Shown here: in pieces, positions 1 through 8,764 of the stretch
How positions within the stretch are numbered: the stretch's first letter is position 1
Layout of the letters: each line of letters begins with the position of its first letter
Assembly (NCBI GenBank): GCA_937861115.1
Contig: CALMBD010000223.1
Location: 1 to 33,060, forward strand
Direction of reading: 5' to 3'
From: an uncultured Bacteroidota bacterium
GTDB lineage: Bacteria > Bacteroidota > Bacteroidia > Chitinophagales > Saprospiraceae
Length of the DNA: 33,060 nucleotides
The notes under the pieces: generated by a model
Told to the model about the DNA's origin: nothing
The model's input: only the letters and a program-made list of their open reading frames with translations
Databases searched by the model: none
Made by a program: the position numbers and the translations under genes

Positions 1-9
1 ACAAACATT

Positions 10-26
10 TGACTTCTCCGAAGTCA
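10..26. terminator. Short perfect hairpin at window start, possible terminator
   Basis: The arms TGACTTC and GAAGTCA form a 7-bp perfect stem with a 3-base TCC loop, followed directly by TTTT and an AT-rich stretch. This would suit a rho-independent terminator of a gene lying before the window, or a regulatory dyad of the downstream peptide operon. Only the structure is seen; its role is inferred. Confidence 0.35.
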
Positions 27-148
27 TTTTAAAAATTCGGGATGACTCATGTTATCTGTGCATTGCCATGCGGGGTATCTGTCTATCGAACCCAACCTGC
101 GCTGCTCCCGATTTTCAGGGTCACACATTTTTTAAGATAAAATATTCA

Positions 149-193
149 GACTGCCAAAACATGGCAGTCACGCGCTTGAACTTTGTCAAAGTT
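149..193. promoter_or_regulatory. Two perfect inverted repeats upstream of the RiPP precursor
   Basis: Positions 149-169 hold GACTGCCA, a 5-base spacer and TGGCAGTC (8-bp arms). Positions 179-193 hold AACTTTG-T-CAAAGTT, a perfect 15-base palindrome. A third, weaker pair (AAGTGC 221-226 with GCACTT 236-241) follows. They lie 120-160 bases before the precursor start in a stretch with no convincing gene, so operator sites or leader-RNA structure for the operon are plausible. A TTTG at 182-185 sits 22 bases before an imperfect ACAATTTG (208-215), too poor a match to call a promoter with confidence. Confidence 0.45.
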
Positions 194-311
194 TTTAATT
201 GTTGCGCACAATTTGAAGCAAAGTGCACTCTGAAAGCACTTAAAAAACACGACGCTGAACATCCGCTCCATGGCGACAGACAGGAGAGGAGAATTATTCA
301 ATCTTTCTGAT

Positions 312-473
312 ATGCAAAAAAATGCAGAGGCTAGAAAGCCATCGTTCGCTGATCTGAAGGCAAAAGCTGGTAAAGCTTTCCTGAATGCTGACGCCGTTAA
401 AGGCGGAGTACTTGCTGAATGTCACCTGCCACCGCTTCCTCCGATCGAGCCGATCCGTACGGACAACATTTAA
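312..473 (+). CDS. Putative RiPP precursor peptide with double-glycine leader
   Basis: This small protein of 53 residues is probably the substrate of the enzymes encoded next to it. Residues 1-32 look like a charged, helical leader ending in NADAVKGG, with Val at -4 and Gly-Gly at -2/-1 as expected for C39 peptidase-containing exporters, one of which lies downstream. The remaining 21 residues are the predicted core: VLAECH, then a proline-rich LPPLPPIEPI, then RTDNI. The core has one Cys, one Thr, one His, two Glu, one Asp, five Pro and no Lys or Ser. An upstream in-frame ATG at 270 would add 14 residues. I prefer 312 because the 11 bases ending in its ATG (TTTCTGATATG) recur exactly at the start of the next gene (690-700). 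I do not recognise a named precursor family. That this is a real gene is inferred from context and leader shape. Confidence 0.68.
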   Translation: MQKNAEARKPSFADLKAKAGKAFLNADAVKGGVLAECHLPPLPPIEPIRTDNI

Positions 474-697
474 TTGGAGCGGAGCAGGGGCTGTGTTTGC
501 GCAAAACGCATGCATTAGCACCTGATCATTCAATTGCCTGCAGGTATTAGTACTTGTTTGGCGGGGGTAACGGTGTGCGAAAGAGGTGTAAGCAACAGAA
601 TGCACCCCCATTTCACAAGAGGGCGCTTCGGCTTTCATACTCTAGCATCGTTATCCCCTTTTCTATATTTTATTCAAGTGTAAATGCCGTTTCTGAT
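474..697 (+). other. Leader gap between precursor and E1-like gene
   Basis: This 224-base gap separates the precursor from the first modification gene. It contains a TTTGCGCAAA palindrome (496-505) and no convincing terminator or second precursor. A 27-codon ORF at 600-683 has no leader-like features. The gap may permit different expression of precursor and enzymes, a common arrangement in peptide operons, but nothing in the sequence proves this. Confidence 0.3.
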
Positions 698-1747
698 ATG
701 GAAAAACTCTTCGTCAAAAAATTTATCCCTGTCTATCAGGAAGGTAAATTTGTGTGTATCGGTTATGCAAATGATAAAGAGCGGTACCTTGAAATGGAGT
801 ATTCCGACCAGCTGATGATTCAGTTGCAACAAGTTGTGAGAGAAGGAATAAGTTCTGAGGATTTGGATATTCCATTGTTTTCAAAACTGAACAACCTGGA
901 TTTTCTTGAACCGCTGGAAAATTTTGCAGAGATCACAGATATTAACAGGGACAGAATCTACTTTCAGTATTTAGGCAACGATAACTTTAATGAAGGTATT
1001 TTTTCTACCCGCATTCTGATATTCGGCGCCGGCGCCGGCGGTTCAACAATTACCTACATGCTCGCCCAAATGGGGTTTCACAACCTCGTTTTAGTCGATT
1101 TTGATACGGTTTCAAAGACAGATATACACAAATCAGTGGTCTTGAAGGCCGCGGATATCGGCATGCCTAAAGTAGAAGCCGTCGCAAAACACATCCGACA
1201 TAATTTTGGGATAGACATTCAATACCAGGAGCACAAGTTTATTGCCTATGATGATCTGGAAGAAATCATCGGCAGATACAATCCGGATTTTATTATCAAG
1301 GCTTGCGACCCGGAACTGATTTTCAGATCGAACTTGAGCCGTATCTGTTTCGGGAATCGTATTCCTTACATCAATATGGCTTATGCCTTTGAAAAATTAA
1401 GGTTGGGGCCTCTTTACATTCCCGGATTTACGTGTTGCGACGAAAGTTTCAACAATTTACAAAAAAAGACATACGGAGAACATTATGACTTCAGGAACGA
1501 CAAAAAGCTATTTGTCGGCTCCCTGGTTCACCCTGCCGTTTCTTTTAATGTCAGCTTGCTGGGAGCCTTCATCCTGAAAGAAATTGTAATGTACCTGACA
1601 GGCCAGTATGAGTATTGCTTTACTATCGGCCGTCTGGTTGTTTTTAATCCGCTTTCCTTGGAATACCACTACTGGAATGCTGATTGCGAAGATAATTGCC
1701 CTGTATGCAAACCACTGTTAATCGATCATATATATGAAAATAATTGA
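698..1747 (+). CDS. MccB/ThiF-like E1 adenylating enzyme, RiPP-modifying
   Basis: This 349-residue protein belongs to the E1-like (ThiF/MoeB/MccB) family, whose members adenylate a carboxylate with ATP; MccB acts on the C-terminal Asn of microcin C7. The first 90 residues resemble a leader-binding region and end in RDRIYFQYL, as in E1-like proteins that act on peptides. The Rossmann loop GAGAGG is at 110-115 and VDFD at 133-136. PYINMAYAF...GPLYIPGF (223-244) recalls the corresponding MccB stretch. Several hallmarks are altered. The usual S-N-L-x-R-Q appears as T-D-I-H-K-S (141-146). The first zinc Cys pair (CYEC in MccB) reads CDES, preceded by another Cys, while the C-terminal pair CPVC (334-337) is intact. 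An in-frame TTG at 554 would add 48 unlike residues; ATG 698 is preferred. The last 14 bases overlap the next gene, so translation is probably coupled. Family assignment is firm; reaction and substrate are inferred. Confidence 0.85.
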   Translation: MEKLFVKKFIPVYQEGKFVCIGYANDKERYLEMEYSDQLMIQLQQVVREGISSEDLDIPLFSKLNNLDFLEPLENFAEITDINRDRIYFQYLGNDNFNEGIFSTRILIFGAGAGGSTITYMLAQMGFHNLVLVDFDTVSKTDIHKSVVLKAADIGMPKVEAVAKHIRHNFGIDIQYQEHKFIAYDDLEEIIGRYNPDFIIKACDPELIFRSNLSRICFGNRIPYINMAYAFEKLRLGPLYIPGFTCCDESFNNLQKKTYGEHYDFRNDKKLFVGSLVHPAVSFNVSLLGAFILKEIVMYLTGQYEYCFTIGRLVVFNPLSLEYHYWNADCEDNCPVCKPLLIDHIYENN

Positions 1748-2846
1748 CTTTGATCTGGATCCGCACTTCTTTCAACAAAACCAGAATTTGTTAAGAAATA
1801 TGTTGCGCTCATTATTTGAGGCAGCCTATCCGGATTTGGCAAATCAGCAAGTGCCGCTTCATGAGTCTGTATATGACGAGCCACTGCTATATTACCATTT
1901 GCTGGGTTCAAAGGCTTATTATCCGATTGAGCAAATCACGGCAGGATACCATAATTTAAGTGCAGAAAAGCCTCGCCTGGGAGACCTGCCCCATGCAAAA
2001 GACATACACGGAAAGACCTATTTCCCCGGGATCGGCTACCTGGATACTTCCGAAAATGGTTTATTGGACAAGACCGGCGGGAGGGAATGGCTTGGCAAGA
2101 CCGAAGTTGAGTTATATAAGTTTGTGCCTAATATAATTCTGGACCACGACCCTTCTGTCAATTACTGCCCGTCAGATTTGGCCGACGGCTACCGCAATGC
2201 GCTGACCCGGGCATTTGAAAAGATGCGCCTCAATACCCCTGAATTCTTCGAGTTGATATGTATGTGCACAAAAAATATTTGCCTGTTCAAGAGTGACAGC
2301 CTCAACTCCTTTGCCGGTATTACACAACACGGCACTTGTTTCATAAATATTGTCGAAGATGATTCAAGCGAGGTGTTTTTTATGGACGACCTGGCACATC
2401 AGTGCGGACATATCATTTTCAATATCCTGACGGCTAAAACAGAGGATTTTCTGAAGTTTGACAAGACTACGCTTATCCGGGACCTGGGTGGCTTTGACGC
2501 CGATGACCGGAATATCTACAGCATCTTTCACGGGTTGTTTACCTATTCCTGTATTCTGAGTTCATTGGACGCCTACCTGGAAAACACGGATGCTGAAGAA
2601 CAGCCATTGCTCAGGCTGGAAGCCTTCGCCCGGCTTGGGTTTTATGTTACCAAGATGTTTGTAGACCTGGAAAATCTGTATGGGAAGAACCTGTTTACTC
2701 CCTTGGGAGAAACTTACTATGCTGCTTTTATAAAGAATTATCAGTGCATGTACGACAAGTACCATACGACTATCAAAACCCTTCCATTCGCAAACCAACC
2801 CTATGTTTTTAGCTTCGAACAATTCCTAAAAGATTACACGTCATGA
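1734..2846 (+). CDS. HExxH-family putative peptide-modifying protein (HQCGH variant)
   Basis: This 370-residue cytoplasmic protein has no signal peptide. In the C-terminal half, DDLAHQCGHIIFNI (218-231) and YSIFHGLFTYSC (262-273) resemble the two conserved blocks of the HEXXH-motif peptide-modification proteins found in RiPP clusters. Some members of that group are described as 2-oxoglutarate-dependent peptide beta-hydroxylases. Here the central Glu is Gln (H222-Q223-x-x-H226), which argues against zinc-protease chemistry but leaves both His residues to bind a metal. The N-terminal half is not recognised. The gene overlaps the E1-like gene by 14 bases and the MBL gene by an ATGA, so it is part of the operon. 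It could instead be an inactive scaffold. Family placement is moderate; a hydroxylase role is inference. Confidence 0.6.
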   Translation: MKIIDFDLDPHFFQQNQNLLRNMLRSLFEAAYPDLANQQVPLHESVYDEPLLYYHLLGSKAYYPIEQITAGYHNLSAEKPRLGDLPHAKDIHGKTYFPGIGYLDTSENGLLDKTGGREWLGKTEVELYKFVPNIILDHDPSVNYCPSDLADGYRNALTRAFEKMRLNTPEFFELICMCTKNICLFKSDSLNSFAGITQHGTCFINIVEDDSSEVFFMDDLAHQCGHIIFNILTAKTEDFLKFDKTTLIRDLGGFDADDRNIYSIFHGLFTYSCILSSLDAYLENTDAEEQPLLRLEAFARLGFYVTKMFVDLENLYGKNLFTPLGETYYAAFIKNYQCMYDKYHTTIKTLPFANQPYVFSFEQFLKDYTS

Positions 2847-4300
2847 TAAAATCAATTTTGCTTGGCAGCCTGATATTGCTGGGAAGCCAGGCCTCCGCAC
2901 AACTGACTGCTGTAAACAGCACCTATTTCGAAGCCGAAAAGGTATTAAGAGAGGCTGAAATGGCGCTGAAGCCGGATTTATACGAATCCTTTAAAATAGA
3001 GGCATTGGGAAAGGAGTATGTTGAAGGCCATTTGGAGTCGCCCGGGCAATTGGACACCGGGCTGTTAAGCATTACAATTGATAATAAAGTACTCGAAACA
3101 TATACTGTAAACCTGAACATGGATTACAGAGGGAAAAAATACCAGTCCAGCTGTGTGTTTGCCGGCGATTCCTGTGCATATATGGACTATGGCGATACTA
3201 TTGCTGTAAAACAAAGCATAAAAGACCACACATTGCTTTATTTCTATTCACCGTATAACCTTGTAAAGAGTATTCAAAAAAATATACGGACACTGCACCT
3301 GGTTAGTGCAAAAGACAAGCATTTCAAAATTTTGGGTTTTAATGACGCATATGGGAATAAATTCTATGTACGCTACAACCGGACTAAAAAAGAATTCACC
3401 GAACTATGGATGCCGGCCTATCATCCGATTTTGGGAGATTACTTCGAAACCGTGACTTACGAAGGTTATAGTTGTGATAAAGGATTTTGTTTTCCTTCAA
3501 AAATCACACATAAAACGGCGAATGGCATATACAGAACCCTGGAGGTATCAAGCATTCAATTCGACCCCAAAAACACTGAAAGGCCTTTCCAGGGAGAGAT
3601 AGTCGAGATAGCAATGGATACTATTTCGAATCATTTATTTTTAATAAAGCTGCTTAACCTAAACAATAAGATGGTGGTCTCAAAACACCAAAATTATTTA
3701 TCCGTGTATGATGCACCGGTAAATATTGAAGTATGCCGTCAGATCATCACTTATTTGCATGAAAAATTTCCGGACTATCCTGTAAAGTATTGTTTTATAA
3801 GCCACCATCACCCGGACCACGCCGGCGGTGTGGGCGCCTTTATGGAAACCGGCTGTCGTATTGTAACTACACCCGGTAATATTTCCTATTTCAATCGTTT
3901 ATCCCGGGCCACCCATACGATGAAAGGCGACCGGATAAACAGGAAGAAAGCGGCCGGGCCATTTATCGACGACATTGCGCTGAACAAAAACAGGCTCTTT
4001 GACGACGGCGATTATCCTGTCGTAGCATACGAAATAGGCAATTCAACCGGGCATACCAACGAATACCTCCTTTTTTACTTTCCCCAAGACAAAGTGTTGT
4101 TTGCCGCCGACTTGGTGTTGTTTTATAAAAACGGCATTTATAGCCAGGGAGAACGGGCTTTTTCGGTATACAAGTTAATTGAAAGCGAAAAATTACCTGT
4201 AGAGCGCATTGTTACGGGATGGCCCTTGCACCATTTTAAGGACTACGGAACGGTGGAAGATATGAAAGCATGCCTGAAAGCAAAATACCCGGGATTGTGA
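2843..4300 (+). CDS. Exported metallo-beta-lactamase-fold hydrolase in the RiPP operon
   Basis: This 485-residue protein has a clear signal peptide (residues 1-19, cut near SQASA|Q), so it acts in the periplasm or outside. The C-terminal half is a metallo-beta-lactamase fold. H-x-H-x-D-H is at 321-326 (SHHHPDHAGG), a further metal His in STGHTNEY at 404, the bridging Asp in AADL at 423 and a late HH at 463-464, which is a full two-metal site. Residues 20-260 form an additional beta-rich domain I do not recognise. It starts inside the stop of the HQxxH gene (ATGA overlap). Family members hydrolyse esters, thioesters, lactams and many other substrates. In this context it may process the exported peptide or act in self-protection. 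The fold is certain; the role is unknown. Confidence 0.85.
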   Translation: MIKSILLGSLILLGSQASAQLTAVNSTYFEAEKVLREAEMALKPDLYESFKIEALGKEYVEGHLESPGQLDTGLLSITIDNKVLETYTVNLNMDYRGKKYQSSCVFAGDSCAYMDYGDTIAVKQSIKDHTLLYFYSPYNLVKSIQKNIRTLHLVSAKDKHFKILGFNDAYGNKFYVRYNRTKKEFTELWMPAYHPILGDYFETVTYEGYSCDKGFCFPSKITHKTANGIYRTLEVSSIQFDPKNTERPFQGEIVEIAMDTISNHLFLIKLLNLNNKMVVSKHQNYLSVYDAPVNIEVCRQIITYLHEKFPDYPVKYCFISHHHPDHAGGVGAFMETGCRIVTTPGNISYFNRLSRATHTMKGDRINRKKAAGPFIDDIALNKNRLFDDGDYPVVAYEIGNSTGHTNEYLLFYFPQDKVLFAADLVLFYKNGIYSQGERAFSVYKLIESEKLPVERIVTGWPLHHFKDYGTVEDMKACLKAKYPGL

Positions 4301-4311
4301 CCTGATTTCCT

Positions 4312-6516
4312 ATGCGCCAGAAATTTCCTTTTTACAAGCAGTTGGATCAAATGGACTGCGGGCCAACCTGCCTGAAAATGATCACTACTTTCTACGGGAA
4401 AAACATATCACGTGAATACCTGAGAGAGAAAACGTTCATTACCAGGGAAGGCGTAAGCATGGCGGGCATATCGGAAGCGGCCGAGTCTGTTGGTTTACAA
4501 AGCCTGGTGTTATTGTCTAACTACGATATGCTCGTCGACGACATTCCGATGCCATGTATTGCACATTGGCGGCAGCGGCATTTTGTTGTGGTGTACAAAG
4601 CGGATCGGAAACATGTTTACGTAGCAGATCCGGCGTTCGGGTTGATCAAATACCTGAAGGAAGAATTCCTTAAAGGCTGGATTTCACAGCCAAACCCGGT
4701 TAAGGAAAATTCAGAAGGAATTCTTTTGGTAATGGAGCCCTCTTTGATATTCTATGATACGGAAAAAGGAGCGGCGGTAAAAAAAAGTTTTTCGTTTCTG
4801 TTGCCATTTATCAAGCCGCACAAAAGGCTTATTGTACAGTTGTTTGTCGGGCTGTTTATCGGCAGTGTTATTCAGCTGATTTTTCCGTTTTTGACACAGG
4901 CAATCGTCGATATCGGGATTGGGCAGCATAATCTGAATTTTATTCACCTTGTGTTGGTGGGACAGCTGGTTTTGTTTGTCTCACAGACGATGACAAACGC
5001 CTTGAGAAGCTGGTTGTTGCTACACATTACCAGTCGTATCAACATTTCATTAGTCTCTAACTTTCTGATTAAACTGATGCGTTTGCCCATTGCTTTTTTT
5101 GATACCAAAACAGTGGGCGATTTGCTACAAAGAATACAAGACAATTCCAGGATACAGAACTTTTTGTCTTCCTCTTCCCTGAATGTACTTTTTTCTTCTT
5201 TTAGTATCGTTATTTTTTCATCCGTACTGTATTATTACAGTTTCCTGATTTTTTTAATACTGGTTTTTTTTACGCTTCTAAACATAGTTTGGGTGGCACT
5301 TTTTCTTAAAAAAAGGGCCGTTTTGGATTATAAACGTTTTGATCAGGCGGCAGGCAATCAGAGTAGTACAATCCAATTGCTTAACGGCATGCAGGAAATA
5401 AAACTGAATAATTCAGAGAAGCGGAGAAGATGGGAATGGGAACTGATACAGGTGCGTTTATTCAAATTGTCCATAAAAAGCCTGTCTCTTTCACAATTGC
5501 AAGATATCGGAGGAAACTTTATCCTGCAACTCATGAGTATCCTGATTACATTTTTTGCAGCCAAGCAGGTACTCGATAATGATTTTTCACTGGGTACCAT
5601 GCTTTCCATACAGTTTATTATCGGGCAGCTAAACGTACCCATAAATAGTTTCATCGGATTTATGCAGGCCTACCAGGATGCCAGAATTAGTCTGGAACGC
5701 CTGGCAGAAATCCATGACAAAGAAGATGAGGTGAAGGAGGGCGACAATCTTATAGACCAACTGCCGGCAGTTAAAGATATAGTATTTAAAGATGTGAGTT
5801 TCCGATATGGCGGAAGCACTTCGCCTTTGGTGTTGGAGCATATTAACCTTGTAATTCCAGAGGGCAAAGTGACTGCTATTGTGGGCGCCAGCGGTAGTGG
5901 GAAAACGACTTTGTTAAAATTGATCCTGAAGTTTTATGAACCCAGTGAGGGTCTTATAAACATAGGCCCTAATAATTTAAATAATTTTGACAGCGATTTC
6001 TGGAGAAAGAATATTGGCGTAGTGATGCAGGAGGGGTACATTTTTGCCGATACTGTTGCCAGAAATATTACCGAATCCGATTCGGACGGCGTTCTGGACA
6101 AAACGCGCCTGTTGCATGCGGTAAAGGTTGCAAACATTGAAGAGTTTATCGAAACCTTGCCAAATGCCTATAAAACCCGCATCGGAGCTAGCGGTAGCAG
6201 TATTAGCGGAGGACAAAAACAAAGGATTTTGATTGCCCGTACGGTGTATAAGAACCCCAGTTTTTTATTGTTTGACGAGGCTACCAGTTCTTTAGATGCA
6301 AACAATGAGAAAATCATAATAGAGAACCTCGAAAAGTTCTTCAGATCAAAAACGGTAGTTATTGTAGCTCACCGGCTCAGTACCGTAAAGCATGCAGACA
6401 ATATCGTAGTGCTAGATAAAGGGAGAATCATTGAAGAAGGTACGCATGAATATCTCACCAGCCTTAAAGGAGCCTACTATACCTTGATAAAAAATCAGTT
6501 GGAACTTGGAGATTAA
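4312..6516 (+). CDS. Peptidase-containing ABC exporter (C39 domain, PCAT)
   Basis: This 734-residue inner-membrane transporter cuts the leader off its peptide substrate and exports the core. Residues 1-130 are a C39 peptidase with catalytic Cys16 (QMDCGPTC), His90 (RQRHFVVV) and Asp106 (VADPAFG). A six-helix ABC membrane domain follows at about 165-450. The ATPase has Walker A GASGSGKT (525-532), signature SGGQ (632-635), Walker B FLLFDE (651-656) and H-loop His687. Length and domain order match bacteriocin exporters of the ComA/LagD/SunT type. The proposed substrate is the peptide at 312-473, whose leader ends in Gly-Gly. It follows the MBL gene by 11 bases and precedes its HlyD partner. All catalytic residues are present, so it should be active. 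Confidence 0.95.
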   Translation: MRQKFPFYKQLDQMDCGPTCLKMITTFYGKNISREYLREKTFITREGVSMAGISEAAESVGLQSLVLLSNYDMLVDDIPMPCIAHWRQRHFVVVYKADRKHVYVADPAFGLIKYLKEEFLKGWISQPNPVKENSEGILLVMEPSLIFYDTEKGAAVKKSFSFLLPFIKPHKRLIVQLFVGLFIGSVIQLIFPFLTQAIVDIGIGQHNLNFIHLVLVGQLVLFVSQTMTNALRSWLLLHITSRINISLVSNFLIKLMRLPIAFFDTKTVGDLLQRIQDNSRIQNFLSSSSLNVLFSSFSIVIFSSVLYYYSFLIFLILVFFTLLNIVWVALFLKKRAVLDYKRFDQAAGNQSSTIQLLNGMQEIKLNNSEKRRRWEWELIQVRLFKLSIKSLSLSQLQDIGGNFILQLMSILITFFAAKQVLDNDFSLGTMLSIQFIIGQLNVPINSFIGFMQAYQDARISLERLAEIHDKEDEVKEGDNLIDQLPAVKDIVFKDVSFRYGGSTSPLVLEHINLVIPEGKVTAIVGASGSGKTTLLKLILKFYEPSEGLINIGPNNLNNFDSDFWRKNIGVVMQEGYIFADTVARNITESDSDGVLDKTRLLHAVKVANIEEFIETLPNAYKTRIGASGSSISGGQKQRILIARTVYKNPSFLLFDEATSSLDANNEKIIIENLEKFFRSKTVVIVAHRLSTVKHADNIVVLDKGRIIEEGTHEYLTSLKGAYYTLIKNQLELGD

Positions 6517-6543
6517 TTAAACCAACAGCCATACGCTCAAATT

Positions 6544-7836
6544 ATGGAATACATATCTAAAATCAATGAGTTGGAAGACTCCGATGAGCCTGTCCGGGAG
6601 ATATTAGGTAAAGTACCGAGCTGGCTTGTCCGATGGGGAAACATGCTGATCTTGTTGTTTTTTATTAGTTTGATTGCGATTGCCAACCTGATCAAATTCC
6701 CGGAAAGTATTCTTACGACGACTACCATACTCTCAATTAATGCGCCTAAACCGGTGGTTTCCAGTGCCGGCGGGAAGTTGATTTGGCTGGATGCCCATGA
6801 AGGACAACATGTGGTCAAAGGCGCCTTGCTCGGATTTACAGAAAGTGTAGGCAAGCATCGCCAGGTGCTTGATCTATATGAACAGTTGAATCAGTTGAGA
6901 TCGGGCCTGAACGAAGGAACAGTAAGGAAGGTAAAGTGGTTTGACTTAAAGCCTTACAGAGACCTGGGCGAATTACAACAAGATTTTCAGGTTTTTTCTC
7001 AGGCCTGCATTACCTATCGAAACTATTTGGCAGGAGGGCTTTATCCTCAAAAGAGGGCTATGCTGGAGGCCGATCTGGAGCATTTGGCCCTGCTAAAAGA
7101 AAATCTGAAGAATCAAAAAAGTCTGCTGGAACAAGACTTTGTATTGTCACAACAGACATTCAGTATGAACGAGACGCTGCTGGAAGAAAAATTGATTTCC
7201 GAATCAGACCTCCGGAATGAAAAAAGCAGACTCCTGGGCAAAAAGATTACGTTACCGCAGGTAGAAGGCTCGATTATTCTGAACGAAACCCAGCAAAATG
7301 AGAAAAGAAAAGAAATTCTGGAGTTGGATGACATCATTTCCAAGCAAACCCAGTTGTTTCAGGAAGCCCTTAACCTATTCAAAGGCCAGGCAGAAGATTG
7401 GATGAAAAAATTCATCCTCACTGCCCCTGTTGATGGTATCGTAGCATTTAATTCTTTTGTACAAGAGAACCAACAGCTTCAACCCGGTCAACTGGTTTGC
7501 TATATCAATCCGGGAGACAGTCGCTATTTTGCTGAAGCATATATTCCACAGGAAAATTTCGGGAAAATAGGTATCGGACAAGAAGTACTATTGCGTTTCC
7601 CTTCTTATCCATACCAGGAATACGGGCTAGTACGAGGAAAAGTTGAATTCATTTCCCACATAGGCACCGAACAGGGTTATTTGTCCAAGATCGCCCTTCC
7701 CGACAATCTTTCAACGACCGCCAATAAAAAAATTCAGTACCGGGAGGGGCTAAGCGCCAACGCCGAAATCATTACAAAGGATATGAAACTGATTGAACGT
7801 TTGTACTACACCATCCTGCGTCTAAAAAAGTACTGA
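6544..7836 (+). CDS. HlyD-family membrane fusion protein of the peptide exporter
   Basis: This 430-residue periplasmic adaptor bridges the ABC exporter and an outer-membrane channel. One N-terminal transmembrane helix (about 35-55, NMLILLFFISLIAIANLI) is followed by a biotinyl-lipoyl-like half (PKPVVSSAGGKLIWL...GQHVVKGALLG). A long alpha-helical coiled coil covers about 100-285. The second lipoyl half and barrel follow (FILTAPVDGIVAF at about 290), then a C-terminal beta domain. It follows the exporter gene by 27 bases. No TolC-like channel gene is visible in the window, so a chromosomal TolC homologue would be needed. It is the last clearly AT-rich gene of the block. Confidence 0.92.
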   Translation: MEYISKINELEDSDEPVREILGKVPSWLVRWGNMLILLFFISLIAIANLIKFPESILTTTTILSINAPKPVVSSAGGKLIWLDAHEGQHVVKGALLGFTESVGKHRQVLDLYEQLNQLRSGLNEGTVRKVKWFDLKPYRDLGELQQDFQVFSQACITYRNYLAGGLYPQKRAMLEADLEHLALLKENLKNQKSLLEQDFVLSQQTFSMNETLLEEKLISESDLRNEKSRLLGKKITLPQVEGSIILNETQQNEKRKEILELDDIISKQTQLFQEALNLFKGQAEDWMKKFILTAPVDGIVAFNSFVQENQQLQPGQLVCYINPGDSRYFAEAYIPQENFGKIGIGQEVLLRFPSYPYQEYGLVRGKVEFISHIGTEQGYLSKIALPDNLSTTANKKIQYREGLSANAEIITKDMKLIERLYYTILRLKKY

Positions 7837-7840
7837 CACA

Positions 7841-8764
7841 ATGAAATACCTCCTTGGCATTCTTCTCCTCTCCTTTACTTGTTGCCATCTGGCCCGGACC
7901 CAAGCCATCGAAAAAACAAATTTCGAGTTAAAAAGCGCTTCCGGCGCTTCTTGCGTGTGGGTGGCGCCCAAAGCAGGAATGGTAAAAGGCGCTGTGGTCC
8001 TGATTGCAGGCTTCGGCGAGACGGCGGAGGGGGCGCTGACCGAAACCCTCATCCCGGCGGCTTTATGTGAGCGCGGAATAATGGCGGTAGTGGTGGGTTT
8101 CGGTCAGCGCATGTACGCGGACTCGTTAGTGACGGCAACACTCGATGAGGCGACGGCCGCTGTGCAGGAGCGCTATCACCTGGAATGCGCGTGTATTGCG
8201 TTGGGCGGATTTTCCATCGGAGGAGCCATCGCCCTGCGTTATGCCGAACAGTGCCACGAACAACCGGAGCGGCACCCTTTGTTGCCAAAGGCCGTTTTTG
8301 CCATCGATGCACCGGTAGACCTTATCGAGTTGTGGAATTATTTTGAACGGGAAATAACCCGAGACTTCGACCCTGACGGGGTAGCAGAAGCGAAATATGT
8401 ATCCGAACTCTTGAAGAAAGAAATCGGCACACCTGCCGAAAACCGGGCGCTGTATGAGGCGCTTACGCCCTACTGTCACAGCTGTCCGGCGCCCGGCAAC
8501 GAGCGCTTTCTGAAAAATACAGCCGTTCGGGCCTACCACGATGTAGATTTGGACTGGTACCTGAAACACAAAAAACGAAGCGCGTACGATTGCAATTTTC
8601 TGAACACCTCGGCGCTCCTTGCACAACTGTTACAATTGGGCAATGAACAGGCGACCTTTGTCAAGGGTAAAACCGGCTACCGCAGCAACGGCACGCGAAA
8701 CCCGCACGCCTGGTCGATCGTAGATGAACAGGAACTGGCAGCGTGGATCGATCAGATGTTCTGA
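7841..8764 (+). CDS. Exported alpha/beta-hydrolase
   Basis: This 307-residue alpha/beta-hydrolase-fold protein has an N-terminal signal peptide (about 1-21, with a CC pair near residue 14 that is not a clean lipobox). The nucleophile elbow G-F-S-I-G-G places Ser125, an oxyanion-type loop VVLIAGFGE lies at about 52-60, and the catalytic His is probably in NPHAWSI near the C terminus. It is likely a secreted esterase or acyl hydrolase of unknown substrate. It begins 4 bases after the HlyD stop, so cotranscription with the peptide operon is possible. However, its base composition is clearly GC-richer, like the following region, so it may be the resident gene next to an acquired cluster. Confidence 0.75.
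   Translation: MKYLLGILLLSFTCCHLARTQAIEKTNFELKSASGASCVWVAPKAGMVKGAVVLIAGFGETAEGALTETLIPAALCERGIMAVVVGFGQRMYADSLVTATLDEATAAVQERYHLECACIALGGFSIGGAIALRYAEQCHEQPERHPLLPKAVFAIDAPVDLIELWNYFEREITRDFDPDGVAEAKYVSELLKKEIGTPAENRALYEALTPYCHSCPAPGNERFLKNTAVRAYHDVDLDWYLKHKKRSAYDCNFLNTSALLAQLLQLGNEQATFVKGKTGYRSNGTRNPHAWSIVDEQELAAWIDQMF

Follow-up and report, generated by a model that had tools for sequence, protein, structure and literature searches.

A probable Saprospiraceae RiPP operon that joins a divergent aKG-HExxH-fold protein, a candidate Cys-His precursor and an apparently exchangeable MccB-like E1

Enzymes of the ThiF type in pathways to ribosomally synthesised and post-translationally modified peptides (RiPPs) adenylate a carboxylate. 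For MccB the target is reported to be a C-terminal Asn (PMC12150305); GrcB adenylates a Glu and leads to a Glu-Cys thiolactone (PMC12250964), the C-terminal Ile activated by EnfB is attacked by a backbone amide (the product is called putative in PMC12150305), and with IndF the attack on a C-terminal Ile comes from a Trp indole (PMC12150305, PMC12250964). The alpha-ketoglutarate-dependent HExxH (aKG-HExxH) peptide hydroxylases (TIGR04267 / IPR026337; ChlB-HExxH, PflC/PosC, BpmH, PesO) are likewise encoded in RiPP operons and share a fold with three His and one Arg; a literature description of SjiH was not found among the matches listed. In the nitrilobacillin (pes) pathway an aKG-HExxH enzyme works together with an asparagine-synthetase-like enzyme that adenylates the C terminus; the precursors end in R(V/T)DN after Pro (PMC13060819). 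Here we describe an operon at the start of a 33,060-nucleotide stretch (the window; contig CALMBD010000223.1 of assembly GCA_937861115.1) from an uncultured Bacteroidota bacterium of the Saprospiraceae. It encodes a candidate precursor, a full-length MccB-like E1, a protein with an HQxxH motif, a metallo-beta-lactamase (MBL)-fold hydrolase, a C39 exporter and an HlyD-type adaptor (Table 1). As an earlier reading of these letters without database searches (the sequence-only reading) had held, this is an unusual RiPP operon; it rather probably makes a modified and exported RiPP of a modular family by the steps proposed below. The same reading held that the gene set may define an undescribed RiPP type, and no publication was found in which ThiF, HExxH, RiPP, precursor and 'biosynthetic gene cluster' occurred together, in a search that left subscription journals mostly outside its coverage.

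The HQxxH protein shared its fold with ChlB-HExxH, and the two top structures were described as, or matched, aKG-HExxH enzymes. Residues H222, H226, H266 and R300, invariant across seven aligned rows including a Pantoea member of TIGR04267, are the predicted metal-site ligands. The window motif is HQCGH, and aligned homologues carried Gln at the second position in 35/41 cases, Glu in 5/41 and Thr in 1/41. The protein, in which the sequence-only reading had correctly seen the motif and taken it as HEXXH-type, is better regarded as a divergent branch of the aKG-HExxH oxygenase fold than as a plain HEXXH-type, peptidase-like protein. It differs from the described hydroxylases in the Gln of most members, in a score below the NCBIfam cut-off, in the lack of a Pfam model (no match at E<=1, nor for the precursor), and in its association with GG-x4-Cys-His precursors and a C39 exporter. 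Several points weigh against the assignment: the motif departs from HExxH, TIGR04267 gave 14.4 bits for the window protein at a cut-off of 40, and the protein forms a long lone branch (length 1.71, quick tree method), so that its activity may have shifted. TIGR04267 matched 13/41 members at E<=0.1 (best 2.2e-6) and 0/20 in the 20 relatives scanned; the homologue in L044 (loci are given L numbers) reached 20.9 bits at the same cut-off.

When only the window protein was used as query, no relative was confirmed among 34 candidate stretches; an alignment-based scan gave 41 loci. Among 100 near relatives including the window genome itself, the window genome alone had a match, and 5 of 395 genomes of the phylum did, one of them again the window genome. 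Another of the five, G213, was dropped, since the match covered only 57 residues within a long gene that looks peptidase-like. Two plasmid records held a relative. The family extends over Bacteroidota and five proteobacterial loci (taxa per record titles).

The candidate precursor has a leader with the stretch KAGKAFL, a Gly-Gly (KGG) before the core, and a core of 21 aa, VLAECHLPPLPPIEPIRTDNI, with Cys5-His6 and the tail PIRTDNI, ending in DNI; the motif around the cleavage site is GGVLAECH. Small open reading frames (ORFs) of 30-130 aa on the same strand and <=7 kb from the HQxxH gene were searched, and a GG-x4-CH ORF was found in 34/44 loci, several loci having at least two each. This pattern occurred in 51/1,471 near ORFs and in 0/3,244 other small ORFs taken as control, and in 3/26,416 ORFs of base-shuffled loci, and each other spacing of Gly-Gly to Cys-His from 0 to 14 occurred in <=2 near ORFs. 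As the loci had been found via the enzyme alone, the motif is independent evidence for 312-473 as the precursor. A Cys-His pair four residues past Gly-Gly thus appears to be the recurring substrate feature, and HQxxH protein plus Cys-His precursor the recurring pair. Against this count five of the 44 loci (L071, L075, L079, L081, L084), in which Cys-His stands at a different distance or without Gly-Gly. In L060, L070, L073, L077 and L078, which also had no GG-x4-CH, the HQxxH gene begins <1 kb from the contig start. The Gly-Gly leader, the C39-ABC exporter and the HlyD partner place the product among the double-glycine peptides of peptidase-containing ATP-binding transporters (PCATs), from others of which it differs by the Cys-His at a fixed distance past the cut and by the adjoining HQxxH enzyme. 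No description of this HQxxH/Cys-His family was found in the literature, subscription journals being mostly outside coverage, which is not proof of absence.

The window genome contained 36 sites of the GG-x4-CH pattern, the window's own included, and the reversed control 44; in the 14 of the 36 site contexts that were examined, 12 of them with an open frame, no further precursor was found. The HQxxH relative of a Pseudorhodobacter plasmid (L105 5454-6591) directly follows an ORF with GKGYEACH, in which Cys-His is retained and Gly-Gly lost; the precursors of L068 and L076 have tails like that of this ORF. The proteobacterial GG-x4-CH precursors (L049 9615-9911, L062 9638-9895, L057 9589-9792, L059 2206-2427) have longer cores with much Ser, Ala, Val and Leu; a VRF or LRF end is seen in two of them. 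By eye, the residue before Cys-His was acidic in 9/10 loci that have an MBL gene and a readable precursor vs 6/29 others (Fisher 0.0002). Only 3-4 independent pairs stood behind this on the tree, where significance was lost, and with so few independent events the association was dropped as support.

Across the 44 loci, parts were counted as a homologue anywhere in the locus, and some may be missed where a locus is truncated at a contig end. The C39 exporter was present in 38/44, HlyD in 36/44 by phmmer (35/44 by clustering), proteins with tetratricopeptide repeats (TPR), a loose family, in 26/44, an MBL homologue in 11/44, the CPBP protease family in 10/44, a carnosine-methyltransferase-like gene in 9/44 and the E1 in 2/44. 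The sequences thus indicate that precursor and HQxxH enzyme occur as a set, which in most loci includes the C39 exporter. Of the parts whose recurrence the sequence-only reading proposed to examine, Gly-Gly ORF, PCAT and HlyD recur in most loci and MBL and E1 in a minority, and with two loci the E1 cannot stand as one half of a defining pair; it looks like an exchangeable cassette on a constant chassis. No YcaO, radical SAM or lanthionine synthetase was seen in scans of seven window proteins and a by-eye reading of the other ORFs. This absence does not define a type, because some relatives carry such maturases: LanB- and LanC-like genes are found in L044, relatives of its LanB-like gene in L067 (by clustering), matches below cut-off to the grasp-with-SPASM maturase model in L069 and L084, and an MvdD-type ATP-grasp gene in L069. 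The one methyltransferase scanned (L045/L085) matched Pfam CARME (carnosine N-methyltransferase) with 7.1e-15; its match to the OvoA C-terminal model was weaker (4.5e-9). The carnosine N-methyltransferase and OvoA families both methylate the His imidazole, which would fit a modification of His within the Cys-His pair.

Two small groups of genes recur beside these parts. In L048 (7897-9060), L074 (5166-6341) and L078 (1963-3138) a protein of ~390 aa stands directly before the C39 exporter, the place of the MBL gene elsewhere; the L074 protein had no Pfam or NCBIfam match at E<=0.01. After the HQxxH gene a protein of ~145-185 aa recurs by a TPR protein (type L065 4792-5250, with no Pfam or NCBIfam match), and this type is fused to the HQxxH enzyme in L046.

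The best solved structures for a two-row E1 profile were MccB chains (best 1.5e-25), in agreement with the MccB-like E1 of the sequence-only reading, and besides its ThiF domain the protein matched 3h5a over residues 61-347, which counts as a full-length match to MccB. It shares with MccB, PaaA, GrcB, EnfB and IndF, the enzymes of the type with a RiPP recognition element (RRE), the position beside a small precursor, whose C-terminal Ile is also found in EnfB and IndF substrates; it differs by the accompanying HQxxH enzyme and C39 exporter, by a C terminus other than Asn and by the ATP site. A putative leader-binding, RRE-like N terminus is followed by the adenylating domain and a Cys-rich C terminus. 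Two observations do not fit well. Compared by eye, the ATP-site Arg of MccB and EnfB is Lys in both E1s, which retain the ATP-site Lys and the Mg-binding Asp (roles of these residues are given in PMC12250964), and one of the four zinc-type Cys of MccB is missing. The E1 model, with a predicted local distance difference test (pLDDT) score of 33.4 overall and ~41-69 for residues 1-80, is too poor for recognising a leader-binding domain; the N-terminal length is similar.

The ORFs of the 44 loci included a single relative of the window E1, with 47% identity, in Dyadobacter sp. CY345 (L055), where a conserved small ORF again precedes the E1 gene, as the sequence-only reading would expect. The order of G263 (390 genomes, E<=1e-20) and the family of G773 (222 genomes, E<=1e-15) gave a match in G773 only, and as its match lies at the L055 coordinates, the two are probably the same strain. 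E1 matches in 81 of 100 relatives (E<=0.001) remained, beyond the window, at the general ThiF level (best 6e-10); this best match, L011, was MoeB-like by eye, without such an operon, and was rejected. Plasmids gave an E1-like match in 97 records, neither record with an HQxxH relative being among the 12 matches listed. In PADLOC, 32 models matched the E1, the 25 listed all being E1-E2 defence models that matched in its ThiF part, and none matched the HQxxH protein, the MBL hydrolase or the hydrolase of L055; a defence system was set aside, no E2-like partner being seen in the ORF list.

The Dyadobacter loci allow a direct comparison. L055 DNA is 85-87% identical to L053 and L056 up to ~20 bp before the precursor start and 83% identical to L052 up to 40 bp inside the precursor, and from ~60-110 bp inside the HQxxH gene on it is 87-92% identical to all three (L054 is more distant, 74-79%). 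Between these breakpoints L055 has a precursor, the E1 and an alpha/beta-hydrolase, and the other Dyadobacter loci a precursor and a CPBP protease; apart from the E1 cassette, L055 is a normal Dyadobacter locus. These alignments indicate that in Dyadobacter precursor plus maturase was exchanged as one cassette. In the HQxxH tree (quick method) L055 groups with L052 and L054, apart from the window branch, and the same E1 type therefore occurs on two separate backbones. Both E1-linked precursors have a KAG[KQ]AFL stretch in the leader; their cores, 20-21 residues long, contain 3-5 Pro and no aromatic residue and end in DN[I/V], in contrast to the CPBP-type Dyadobacter cores (L052, L053, L054, L056) with 0-1 Pro, 3-5 aromatics and different ends. 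This contrast is weakened by the number of E1 loci (n=2) and by two loci without E1: in L044 the core contains Pro and a CDN stretch, and in L050 it is Pro-rich (4 Pro) and free of aromatics.

From these data the following pathway may be proposed. The HQxxH enzyme, with Fe(II) and 2-oxoglutarate, would oxidise the peptide at or next to Cys-His, core positions 5-6. The E1 would bind the leader, perhaps via KAGxAFL, and adenylate the C-terminal Ile/Val carboxylate, after which an internal nucleophile would most likely attack and close a macrocycle; because of the Ile/Val ends, the absence of Trp and Cys5/His6 as the clear shared nucleophiles, Cys5, perhaps giving a thiolactone, is a first guess. 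The C39 domain is predicted, with good support from established C39 logic, to cut after Gly-Gly, and the ABC/HlyD pair to export the product. The MBL hydrolase, whose fold confirmed the sequence-only reading and whose export-type N terminus was read by eye, may act outside the cytoplasm on the product or a competing peptide, in immunity, late maturation or last trimming. Nitrilobacillin (PMC13060819) likewise combines an aKG-HExxH enzyme with C-terminal adenylation, and its R(V/T)DN end resembles the window tail, in which RTDN is followed by one extra residue, Ile. It has an asparagine-synthetase-like enzyme, a multinuclear non-haem iron-dependent oxidase (MNIO) and M16 peptidases, where an E1 and C39 are found here; neither the asparagine-synthetase-like enzyme nor an MNIO was among the seven scanned window proteins, and the likeness may be convergence.

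Of the other explanations, the one that survives best concerns the carboxylate: the E1 might activate the C terminus so that it is amidated or joined to a small molecule, or its target might be the side-chain carboxylate of Glu4/Asp4, adjacent to Cys, as with GrcB. GrcB joins Cys to the side chain of a Glu, EnfB is capable of amidation (PMC12250964), and both E1-linked precursors have an acidic residue directly before Cys-His. By eye this residue is also found in most MBL loci without E1, and in the Dyadobacter swap what accompanies the E1 is the changed leader together with the DN[I/V] end, so that we consider this course possible and, on balance, rather unlikely. Less probable still is that the HQxxH protein is a zincin peptidase or a non-catalytic binding protein which trims or presents the precursor. 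Zincin peptidases need the motif Glu, and 35/41 homologues have Gln there while the three His and the Arg stay; the two top structures point to aKG-HExxH enzymes, and in 38/44 loci a C39 domain is already at hand to remove the leader. A microcin C-like peptide-nucleotide (phosphoramidate) instead of a macrocycle would agree with MccB as the closest solved E1 relative; it is quite improbable given that the MccB substrate ends in Asn (PMC12150305) and the window and L055 precursors in Ile and Val, and that export and a 21-residue core after a Gly-Gly leader are unlike microcin C. Finally, the rarity of the E1 (2/44) and the long HQxxH branch might suggest a chance assembly, with the E1 substrate elsewhere and the operon decaying, which the open, overlapping or closely spaced ORFs and the same E1-precursor pairing on a different HQxxH backbone in Dyadobacter render very improbable.

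With oxidation at Cys-His and E1 macrocyclisation as the preferred reading, a protein without a Pfam family can be predicted to be a peptide oxygenase for which a substrate motif is defined, and HQxxH plus GG-x4-CH becomes a search key for the family. The operon also provides an E1 that seems to work beside an oxygenase. In the Dyadobacter loci nature offers a swap experiment, with the same site and chassis and a different precursor and maturase, which makes the gain of new chemistry by RiPP operons directly testable. More speculatively, and with low confidence, the HQxxH enzymes may represent a large RiPP superfamily that has not been described before. Its oxygenase, a Gln variant of the zincin fold, would form a novel structure from Cys-His (for example a cross-link of Cys S and His imidazole, or an oxidised ring), His-methylated in Flavobacteriia, and natural exchange of cassettes would join this fixed unit to another maturase (E1 macrocyclisation, lanthionine synthesis, ATP-grasp/SPASM).

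The six plus-strand genes of the sequence-only reading, with the Gly-Gly precursor first and exporter and adaptor last, were all recovered at their positions (Table 1). E1 and HQxxH genes overlap by 14 bp and HQxxH and MBL genes by 4 bp, followed by gaps of 11 bp (MBL-C39) and 27 bp (C39-HlyD).

Table 1. Features of the operon and its left flank in the window
Feature	Position	Strand	Remark
End of MITE-like inverted-repeat element, outside the pathway	1-55	.	52-55 bases repeated elsewhere in the genome
Candidate precursor gene	312-473	+	ATG start, 53 aa, MQKNAEARKPSFADLKAKAGKAFLNADAVKGG/VLAECHLPPLPPIEPIRTDNI
Untranslated stretch, precursor to E1	474-697	+	RNA folding vs shuffles
MccB-like E1 (ThiF fold), 349 aa	698-1747	+	Pfam ThiF (PF00899) 1.7e-27
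HQxxH enzyme, 370 aa, aKG-HExxH-like fold, H222, H226, H266, R300	1734-2846	+	
MBL-fold hydrolase, 485 aa	2843-4300	+	Pfam Lactamase_B 1.1e-11
C39 peptidase-ABC exporter (PCAT)	4312-6516	+	Peptidase_C39 (PF03412) 7.9e-32 + ABC domains
HlyD-type adaptor	6544-7836	+	Pfam HlyD_3 2.8e-14

The GC content at third codon positions (GC3) was 0.47-0.53 from E1 to HlyD vs 0.58-0.75 in 13 measured later genes, and overall GC 0.41-0.44 over 1-7500 vs 0.48-0.58 from 9001 on. Because of this difference the operon looks like an acquired island with its right edge near the HlyD end. An alpha/beta-hydrolase-like gene (7841-8764) starts 4 bp past HlyD. Its GC3 of 0.617 matches the chromosome, it is not similar to the alpha/beta-hydrolase of the L055 E1 cassette (E 0.16), and no homologue was present among the ORFs of the other loci; it was provisionally placed outside the operon. 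On the left, the contig starts at base 1 within a repeat, an element of ~225 bp with inverted ends that resembles a miniature inverted-repeat transposable element (MITE). The same genome has complete copies in contigs C136, C187 and C306, and the first 55 bases of the window recur at the ends of C136 and C326. As the contig breaks in this element, the left side of the island is lost from view; among the ORFs >=120 aa listed near the ends of C136 and C326, no RiPP gene was seen by eye. Between precursor and E1, no terminator-like site was detected on the plus strand of 474-697; as RNA this stretch gave a z of -3.72, with 0/200 shuffles folding as well. One might guess at a role such as uneven expression of precursor and enzymes, and at the same place in L055 a hairpin was seen by eye at ~1290-1318.

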